A DNA stretch of 64,000 nt, taken from positions 2,837,501 through 2,901,500 of the forward strand of contig NZ_CP142850.1 of assembly GCF_036287235.1 (NCBI RefSeq), written 5' to 3'. The first letter of the stretch is position 1. The number at the start of each line of letters is the position of its first letter. This DNA is from Exiguobacterium sp. 9-2 (GTDB taxonomy: Bacteria > Bacillota > Bacilli > Exiguobacteriales > Exiguobacteriaceae). The notes under the pieces are model-generated. The model was not told the DNA's origin, ran no database searches, and was given only the letters and a program-made list of their open reading frames with translations. This document shows, piece after piece, positions 14,566 through 47,130 of the stretch. The translations under genes were made by a program, and so were the position numbers.

Positions 14566-14677
14566 CTTCTTTTTATCGCGAGAAACGGAGGGACTGGCCC
14601 AATGATGTTTCGGCAGCGGCGACGATTTGATTCGTACTGTGCCAAATCCAGCAAGCGAAAGCTTGAGAGATAAGAAG
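14566..14677 (+). ncRNA. SAM riboswitch (S-box)
   Basis: The S-box core is recognisable in order: P1 5' strand CTTCTT, GGAGGGACTGGCCC, a GGCAGC element, GTGCCAAATCCAGCA, and the closing GAGAGATAAGAAG. The 3' P1 strand AAGAAG (14672-14677) can pair either with CTTCTT at 14566 or with the CTTCTTTCTT of the terminator, the usual on/off choice. High SAM should terminate transcription before metT. Confidence 0.92.
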
Positions 14678-22100: not shown

Positions 22101-22236
22101 GTCAGTTGCTTGCGGCTTCACAGATATGACATATCCCATTCGTTTTGTATTTTCTTCCTATCTGAACGGACATTAGTTGCATTTCCTTCTGAAATGCTTG
22201 AAACTAAATCTATAGTATATAAAGGGGGATTTTGCA

Positions 22237-22764
22237 ATGGACCAGGAACGTAACTCGAACGAATCAAACGAGAACAATAAAGTGACACCGATTCACCAAG
22301 ATCGTCAACCCGAAACAAACGAACAAGGAATCGCGCCACAACAGCAACAACACTTAGAAGCTTTCCAAGCTTTCCTCGTTGAAAAAGGCATTCCAATGGA
22401 AGCACGTGAGAATGAGACACACGTCTTCTTCATGACACAAGAAAAAACACCTGCAGGAGCAGAACCGATGATGATGATCGTCTTCAGTAAGACGACGACA
22501 GATGTCGAATTGTTCGCTCGTACGGTGACACACGTACCAGATGGTGTCGAGGATCTTCCGATTCTTAATGCCATTAACGATTTCAACCAAGAGTTCAAAT
22601 ACTTCCGCGTCGTTCTCGATAGCGACCGTGATGTCACGATCGCATCGACAATTGATCTGGATCACGGCTTCAATCCAGCAGCGATCTTCGGACATTCTGT
22701 CATGATGTTCCAAGCATCGGACGAAGTCTATACGTATTTGACAAAACTGTATGAACAGTTCTGA
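22237..22764 (+). CDS. YbjN-like domain protein
   Basis: 175 residues. The first 40 are polar and probably disordered (rich in N, E, Q). The rest has the strand/helix pattern and length of YbjN/type III-chaperone-like proteins (LEAFQAFLVEKGIPMEAREN, then NAINDFNQEFKYFRVVLDSD). The role is unknown; such domains often act as adaptors or chaperones. AAAGGGGG precedes ATG 22237. Confidence 0.55.
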   Translation: MDQERNSNESNENNKVTPIHQDRQPETNEQGIAPQQQQHLEAFQAFLVEKGIPMEARENETHVFFMTQEKTPAGAEPMMMIVFSKTTTDVELFARTVTHVPDGVEDLPILNAINDFNQEFKYFRVVLDSDRDVTIASTIDLDHGFNPAAIFGHSVMMFQASDEVYTYLTKLYEQF

Positions 22765-24952: not shown

Positions 24953-25570
24953 TTACTGCGTCACTCTTTTTACGACAGGTGCCGGTACGATGATAGGCTC
25001 CCGTGTCATGACAGCAACGACACGACCGGCGATCGCTACGGCCAGTAATGTGTATAACGTCAAGCTAAGTGGCAGATAAACAAGTGAAATCACTAACACG
25101 ATGGCGTCGAGTCCGAACAAAATCGTTCCGATCGATAGACCTGTCAGTTTGCTGAGTCCCATCGACAGTAGATCGTCTCCACCTGTTGCCGCTCCACTTT
25201 TCAAAACAAGTCCGAGACCATATCCGGTCACGATTCCGCTAGCGATCGCTGCGATGAGTGTCGCTGGCCAAGCCTGTTCTGGAAAGTGGAACAAATCGAG
25301 TCGGTGCCACATTTCATAAAAGAGTGATAACGCACCTGCTGATAGTAATGCTTCACTGACGAAACGCTTGCCTTTGAAGTACAAGGCACCGATGAAAAAT
25401 GGAATATCGAGCACGATCATCGAGATCGAAGGATTGATATCAAAAAAGTATCGACCAAGCAACGATAATCCGATAAAGCCGCCTTCTGCTAATCCGAACT
25501 GTTCATTCAATGTGTAGTAACCGAACGCCATGATCAGCGTTCCGGTTAAGATGGTTGCGATTCGTTTCAT
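24953..25570 (-). CDS. YitT/YczE-family membrane protein
   Basis: 205 residues with five hydrophobic segments. The family signature is a first segment GTLIMAFGYYTLNEQFGLAE and the glycine-rich loop LKSGAATGGDDLLSMGLSKL. YitT proteins are uncharacterised integral membrane proteins. This copy lacks the C-terminal DUF2179 domain of longer YitT proteins. The transcript appears to start about 200 bases upstream and includes a structured leader that sequesters the ribosome-binding site, so expression is probably controlled at translation. Confidence 0.82.
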   Translation of the reverse strand: MKRIATILTGTLIMAFGYYTLNEQFGLAEGGFIGLSLLGRYFFDINPSISMIVLDIPFFIGALYFKGKRFVSEALLSAGALSLFYEMWHRLDLFHFPEQAWPATLIAAIASGIVTGYGLGLVLKSGAATGGDDLLSMGLSKLTGLSIGTILFGLDAIVLVISLVYLPLSLTLYTLLAVAIAGRVVAVMTREPIIVPAPVVKRVTQ

Positions 25571-25775
25571 GTTTTATTGTCCTCTCCCATTTACATCGTG
25601 GGAGAGGTTTTATACGTCCCGTTTGGGTATTCATCTATTTTCGCTCTCCCTGATTTTTATAAGCCATTACCGTCTTGTTCGTCTTGACCGGTACTGCTAA
25701 AAATCAGGTAAGCTGAATAGATGATTGGTCCTCTCGGTATCCATCGGTTTCCACCCCTTCATTAAAAATCTATTT
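25571..25775 (-). ncRNA. Structured 5' leader of YitT gene, candidate riboswitch
   Basis: A TATAAT (-10) at 25781-25786 on the minus strand implies a leader of about 200 bases. Its features 5' to 3' are: CATCTATT (25715-25722) pairing with AATAGATG (25632-25639), enclosing an 11-bp perfect stem CCTGATTTTTA/TAAAAATCAGG and an inner TACCG/CGGTA stem. Next comes GGGAGAG (25644-25650). Then CCTCTCCCA (25599-25607) pairs with TGGGAGAGG (25581-25589), which holds the Shine-Dalgarno site. The first GGGAGAG can compete for CTCTCCC and free the site. A second GATTTTTA (25763-25770) offers an alternative partner for TAAAAATC. I could not match it to a known riboswitch class. Confidence 0.5.
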
Positions 25776-25894
25776 TCATTATAACCCGAATTTCAGTAAC
25801 TAAAACAGTTTTACGCATTCTTCATACAATCCAAACACTTTTGCTCACTCATTCACAATTTAGACAAGATTATGCTCAATGTTGAACAAACTAC

Positions 25895-46879: not shown

Positions 46880-47130
46880 TAAAAAACGCCCCTTGCGCCA
46901 CGCGCAAAGAGACGGAATGACCGCGGTACCACTCTTCTTGGTGTCACTCGACACCCACCTTGTTCGGGGATAACGGGGTTCCCCCGGCTACGCCTTTTCC
47001 TTCAGGAATCGGGCAGCGTCTCAGAAGTGCGTTTCACGATCGGTTCGTCCTCAGGCTTCCACCATTCCCTGATTCGCTAGTTGACGAAAATCAACCGTTA
47101 CTCTCTTCATCATCGACTGTATTCGATATC
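46880..47130 (-). ncRNA. T-box riboswitch leader of argS
   Basis: The leader begins near 47130 after the promoter TTGAGA-N17-TATAAT (47160-47165 and 47137-47142 on the minus strand). The T-box sequence AAGAGTGGTACCGCGG (46921-46936) matches the conserved AGNGTGGTACCGCGG. A terminator hairpin of the form TTTGCGCGTGGCGCAA with T6 (46880-46912) follows. Uncharged tRNA-Arg should stabilise the antiterminator. The specifier codon was not securely identified. This fills most of the 400-base gap before the diguanylate cyclase gene. Confidence 0.93.

Follow-up and report, generated by a model that had tools for sequence, protein, structure and literature searches.

The gene for a short YitT-family membrane protein of Exiguobacterium sp. 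9-2 is preceded on the minus strand by a leader of 216 bases, and we asked what this leader does and what it may sense. The original prediction took it for a candidate new translational riboswitch. The locus lies in a stretch of 64,000 nucleotides (the window) of a complete 3.06-Mb genome, and all coordinates are those of the window. The gene and its probable promoter are as follows.

24953..25570, minus strand: yitT, short YitT-family membrane protein of 205 amino acids (Pfam PF02588, E 4.9e-35)
25778..25783, minus strand: -10 box TATAAT, probable promoter, read from the sequence

The closest YitT was that of Exiguobacterium sp. Leaf196 (99% identity). The Pfam match spans residues 4-188 only and no match to a C-terminal DUF2179 was obtained in the short YitT. 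YitT-type proteins are widespread and, to our knowledge, have no established function. No solved structural relatives of the protein were found, its predicted structure (pLDDT 53) was too poor for a structure search, and yitT has no conserved gene neighbourhood, being alone or beside unrelated genes. YitT point mutations occur in three macrolide-selected Mycoplasma pneumoniae mutants (PMC10240068) and were set aside as a functional hint, being too indirect. The TATAAT noted in the original prediction is a perfect -10 box, and no consensus -35 hexamer was found upstream of it on the minus strand. A conserved block, GTAAAACTGTTTTAGTT.CTGAA.TTC.GGTTATAAT, ends in this box in most Exiguobacterium leaders despite diverged flanks.

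The leader folds into two hairpins, P1 and P2, whose elements are listed below together with a mimic of the yitT Shine-Dalgarno (SD) site.

25632..25723, minus strand: hairpin P1 (segments 1 and 2), MFE fold; its 5' arm overlaps the second half and the stop of a small ORF, uORF1
25723-25716 with 25639-25632, minus strand: P1 stem CATCTATT/AATAGATG, from the sequence
25708-25698 with 25659-25649, minus strand: P1 stem CCTGATTTTTA/TAAAAATCAGG, from the sequence
25693-25689 with 25672-25668, minus strand: P1 stem TACCG/CGGTA, from the sequence
25644..25650, minus strand: GGGAGAG, end of segment 2, SD of a second small ORF (uORF2) and mimic of the yitT SD
25599..25607, minus strand: segment 3, anti-SD strand of P2, CCTCTCCCA (MFE fold, sequence and pair conservation)
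25581..25589, minus strand: segment 4, 3' strand of P2 holding the yitT SD, TGGGAGAGG (MFE fold, sequence and pair conservation)

The MFE of the whole leader was -63.8 kcal/mol against -40.9 kcal/mol for dinucleotide shuffles (z -5.4, 0/200), and fold z-scores against shuffles spanned -5.4 to -9.5; the part from P1 to the yitT ATG of L003, a near-identical Exiguobacterium leader, gave -8.0, and the P1-to-start regions of 22 leaders had a mean of -4.9. All named arms of the long imperfect hairpin of the original prediction were found in place, as was the hairpin holding the yitT SD, formed by 25607-25599 with 25589-25581. The GGGAGAG mimic can pair with CTCTCCC (25606-25600) and compete for the anti-SD strand as proposed, and every Exiguobacterium leader of the window's clade has it. 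The second GATTTTTA, offered as a further alternative partner, does exist at 25770-25763 but only in the closest relatives, being absent from L004-L011, and it was rejected as a functional partner. No intrinsic terminator was found on the coding strand, and since no T-run follows P2 there the control would be translational, as had been proposed; a transcription attenuator with an intrinsic terminator was ruled out. The sole terminator-like match lies on the opposite strand (25581-25607). A search of the leader against Rfam gave no match to a known riboswitch class under strict or permissive settings, the best permissive matches being at chance level (E 4.1 and 4.2) and to the unrelated families GAIT and snoRNA sR5.

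The features described so far agree with a riboswitch, and analysis of the coding capacity of the leader led to another reading. Two elements absent from the original prediction were identified, uORF1, whose stop lies inside the hairpin, and uORF2, whose SD is GGGAGAG.

25697..25744, minus strand: uORF1, peptide MDTERTNHLFSLPDF, stop UAG at 25699-25697, then C
25750..25759, minus strand: SD region of uORF1, AAGGGGTGGA, from the sequence; AAGG-type SD also in relatives

The codons of uORF1 are ATG GAT ACC GAG AGG ACC AAT CAT CTA TTC AGC TTA CCT GAT TTT TAG (15 and the stop), and AAGGGG precedes them, between the promoter and the first hairpin. The second half of this ORF makes up the 5' arm of what had been taken for an aptamer, and the last codons and stop of the ORF lie within the long hairpin. 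Comparison of 93 distinct leaders showed that pN/pS in the uORF1 frame is 0.32 in this clade and 0.08, 0.29 and 0.06 in the other groups, and that it is about 0.6 or more in the other two frames, with several values above 1. Third positions change while the residue is kept, Leu -4 being encoded by CTT, TTA, TTG and CTG within one clade. A short ORF with its own SD thus stands upstream of yitT, with substitutions that indicate selection on the peptide, and the leader very probably encodes a leader peptide.

A metabolite-sensing translational riboswitch, in which P1 is the aptamer and its ligand-bound form decides the pairing of the yitT SD, fits the strong fold, the sequestered SD, the available alternative pairing and the lack of an Rfam match. 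Selection at the protein level nevertheless acts on the 5' arm of P1, which is coding (pN/pS 0.06-0.32, confined to the uORF1 frame). Aptamer classes retain their binding core, but the sequence and internal loops of P1 differ between lineages, no loop or junction core is common to them and the invariant feature is a stop codon. The metabolite aptamer, and with it a new riboswitch class with a conserved core, is therefore highly improbable. Since half of P1 is coding and under selection and both the peptide and UAG-C are conserved, the most likely sensor is the ribosome that translates uORF1, together with the nascent chain. A strong switch-like leader can pass for a riboswitch if a 15-codon ORF is overlooked.

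The distribution of uORF1 was determined by a genome-contig scan with the YitT protein (11 Exiguobacterium and 13 Brevibacillus loci) and by an orthologue search in 399 Bacilli genomes (cut-off E 1e-50 or better). Short-YitT orthologues were found in 108 of the 399 genomes, in six families (f1 with Exiguobacterium, f22 with Brevibacillus, f4, f12, f17 and f28), and none beyond Bacilli among 398 genomes sampled from the phylum. All 108 genomes carry uORF1. A small ORF preceded by its own SD is present in every collected leader except L025, which belongs to a non-orthologous Clostridia protein (34% identical) and is the sole leader without uORF1. The peptides are MDTERTNHLFSLPDF and variants in Exiguobacterium, MRPHRTIWKRFDLSYI in Brevibacillus and MCPRRTIPQRTIWKRYDLSYT and similar in the other families, each followed by the stop; ten f4 genomes outside the collected leaders show the leader-peptide pattern at the same place. 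A degenerate DNA pattern of the C-terminal nonapeptide and stop had a single match in each of 63 genomes, located in every case some 130-260 bases before yitT; elsewhere in these genomes there were 0 matches, and the reversed control also gave 0. No further copies of the leader peptide were found in the source genome. Such a tie to one YitT subfamily offers a handle for finding the inducer and thus the substrate of the protein.

In L122 (family f17) two tandem uORF1-hairpin units, with the peptides MFPQSIWKRQDLSYT and MFPHFIWKRHDLSYT, precede one yitT and may form a tandem attenuator. In L012-L024, L115, L117 and L122 the first 20 bases of uORF1 contain a small hairpin directly behind the start codon, with differing sequences (CGTCC/GGACG, TTGCC/GGCAG, TTTCCA/TGGAAA), which may tune uORF1 initiation.

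The end of uORF1 is tightly constrained. In 93/93 leaders uORF1 ends in TAG and C follows, a count that did not presuppose TAG as the nonapeptide pattern did, while the yitT stops at the same 93 loci are TGA in 51, TAA in 40 and TAG in 2. Pairing in the window does not require the G of TAG, so that structure alone cannot account for the fixed UAG. UAG is read by RF1 only. The residues adjoining the stop are conserved as WK[RQ]xDLSY[TI] in 61 leaders, with few exceptions, and as LFxLPDF in 32; the C-terminus outside Exiguobacterium reads IWKR[YF]DLSY[TI]. The overlap between Exiguobacterium and the other families is small (L at -4, F/Y at -6, W at -9 in one clade and the AGG-coded Arg), so that a single common mechanism is an assumption. 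An invariant UAG-C amid freely changing synonymous sites predicts RF1-specific inhibition, and the peptide would add to the few termination-arrest peptides known.

The same stop might serve a general termination sensor, in which a weak UAG-C and a poor release peptide delay the ribosome at the stop whenever RF1 runs short or is sequestered, as by RF1-trapping antimicrobial peptides, and the peptide recognises no small molecule. The invariance of UAG-C, an RF1-only stop, is what such a sensor would show, but the last nine residues are conserved more tightly than a bare slow stop needs and uORF1 is tied to a single transporter-like gene rather than to stress genes, and we regard such a sensor as unlikely.

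Classical attenuation by shortage of a charged tRNA, where a slow uORF1 codon such as AGG (Arg) or Trp opens P1, finds some footing in the Arg about five codons in, which is AGG in 88/93 leaders and never CGN, and in the Trp at -9 of all non-Exiguobacterium leaders and one Exiguobacterium clade. The other Exiguobacterium clade lacks this Trp, however, there is no run of a single amino acid, and AGG lies near the uORF1 start, where a ribosome would be too far upstream to cover P1. As tRNA shortage also leaves the fixed UAG-C and the conserved C-terminus unaccounted for and yitT is not biosynthetic, this explanation is very unlikely. The AGG-coded Arg (codon 5 in the window, 25732-25730) suggests a codon- or RNA-level constraint for which we have no explanation at hand.

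Comparison of the hairpins revealed that P1 starts at or spans the uORF1 UAG in all groups, a strong hairpin at the same place, whereas Exiguobacterium, Brevibacillus and the remaining groups have unrelated P1 sequences. In the window's clade 94.6% of P1 pairs are kept (slid controls at most 50% paired), and within groups most stems keep 87-100% pairing (slid controls at most 77%). The covariation that the original prediction had proposed to look for in homologous leaders was seen in part: three pairs changed on both sides in P1 of the window's clade and three in P1 of Brevibacillus, suggesting modest covariation inside each lineage, while the pairing of GGGAGAG with segment 3 is kept in 99% of cells but is invariant and therefore gives no covariation evidence. 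A four-segment design with segments 1/3 and 2/4 nearly alike is found in L115, L117 and L122 and is explicit also in Brevibacillus. The 2:3 pairing is strong in these leaders (up to about 17 pairs in Brevibacillus, in the stalled fold of L018) and weak, with 7 pairs, in Exiguobacterium. Modelled folds accordingly contain a hairpin at the leader ORF, a second one predicted to hide the SD and a potential alternative 2:3 pairing.

This arrangement also bears on the possibility that uORF1 encodes a functional micropeptide and that the hairpins tune expression without switching. Selection at the peptide level is what a micropeptide would show, but a peptide acting in trans would need neither a position in cis nor a stop placed at a hairpin, and uORF1 is always in cis with its stop fixed at the base of the hairpin shielding the downstream initiation sites. 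We consider this the least probable account, and extremely unlikely.

The conserved C-terminus, the fixed RF1-type stop and the hairpin at the stop are most simply read as a peptide that, under inducing conditions, blocks its own RF1-dependent release. The leader is likely to be a leader-peptide translational attenuator: by preventing termination through RF1, the nascent peptide would open P1 and free yitT. Transcription would start just past 25778. Without inducer, a ribosome would translate uORF1 and terminate at UAG, P1 would re-form over the uORF1 end and mask the SD and start of uORF2, and P2 would mask the yitT SD, keeping yitT off. With inducer, the nascent peptide would block release, probably with the help of a small ligand or a drug present in the tunnel of the ribosome, and the ribosome would be parked with UAG in the A site and would cover P1's 5' arm. 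Segment 2, once freed, could then pair with the anti-SD strand of P2 (route a), and/or ribosomes could start uORF2 and run through P2 (route b). Either route would expose the yitT SD, and the membrane protein made would plausibly export the inducer. As to the parts of this scheme, we hold translational attenuation by a leader peptide with good confidence, arrest at UAG through RF1 is somewhat favoured, and direct transport of the inducer by YitT is possible, at a little less than an even chance.

Route b depends on the second ORF.

25503..25634, minus strand: uORF2, 43 codons, SD GGGAGAG, out of frame with yitT

In Exiguobacterium uORF2 extends across P2 and into yitT, overlapping its start, and an SD in segment 2 with an ATG 52-71 bases after the uORF1 stop was found in 81/90 leaders. 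No clear selection on the uORF2 peptide sequence was detected, so that only the act of translating it could matter. Another candidate, ATGGCT (the ATG before GCT inside P1), was rejected as a conserved ORF since a stop follows at once in other species.

Switching was modelled by placing a ribosome on the uORF1 stop and comparing access to SD and start in the equilibrium fold; the model ignores folding during transcription, and its access numbers are guides only. The modelled ribosome freed the yitT SD in 14/25 Brevibacillus leaders, in 7/33 others and in 0/15 and 3/17 leaders of the two Exiguobacterium clades; in the window's clade access was 0.49 with or without it. In the energy model the 8-9 pairs of P2 outcompete the alternative of 7 pairs, which leaves the SD unreleased in Exiguobacterium, so that the uORF2 route would be needed there. 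Modelled access to the uORF2 start rose from 0.28 to 0.44 in the window's clade and from 0.17 to 0.63 in the sister clade, and the start was freed in 10/15 and 17/17 leaders of the two clades. Release of the yitT SD, as modelled, is the weakest step of the mechanism in the window's own leader.

Several known arrest peptides resemble uORF1. The closest parallel is the ornithine-sensing SpeFL of gamma-proteobacteria, whose nascent chain inhibits RF1-mediated release (PMC8429421): both are leader peptides, and termination arrest of the RF1 type is what we propose for uORF1, while the peptide (no common motif seen), the bacteria and the target gene are different. TnaC, which senses tryptophan and controls tnaCAB, blocks the release factor at its stop, which is UGA read by RF2, and acts through Rho-dependent control of transcription (PMC8429421). 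Arrest at the stop codon through a blocked release factor would be shared with uORF1, and the W-x-x-x-D spacing (W12/D16 in TnaC, WKR[YF]D outside Exiguobacterium) is a resemblance only; the distance from D to the last residue is 8 residues in TnaC and 4 in the uORF1 peptide, and the Exiguobacterium peptide lacks the motif. The macrolide-induced MsrDL of msrD is arrested at its own stop, where release factors cannot accommodate and the choice of stop codon matters (PMC10314930). The uORF1 product would likewise be a short peptide arrested at its own stop, but MsrDL is MYLIFM with UAA in a transcription attenuator with an intrinsic terminator, whereas the yitT leader uses UAG only and has no terminator. 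The translational attenuators of ermA and ermB have two leader peptides, stem-loops that hide the target SD and a second leader ORF beside the first (PMC8274638), as here; they differ in their targets, which are rRNA methylases, in stalling inside the peptide (ermBL codon 10) and in the peptides themselves. No earlier description of a leader peptide, attenuator or uORF for YitT or YczE was found in a search of mostly open-access literature, and the yitT leader peptide is most likely an undescribed member of the arrest-peptide kind, spread over at least six families. More tentatively, and with somewhat less than even confidence, we propose that a new family of ligand-sensing arrest peptides, acting through RF1 and UAG only, makes up together with the short YitT a self-contained unit for sensing and export. 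The inducing compound would in that case be transported by YitT, which would give a way into the function of an orphan family.

Elsewhere in the window, the gene at 22237-22764 (plus strand) is overlapped by antisense ORFs at 22354-22713, 22305-22637 and 22118-22420 (minus strand), which are probably spurious. Rfam searches also identified two ordinary regulatory leaders, a SAM riboswitch (RF00162, 82.8 bits) at 14570-14676 on the plus strand and a T-box leader (RF00230, 106 bits) at 46905-47122 on the minus strand.
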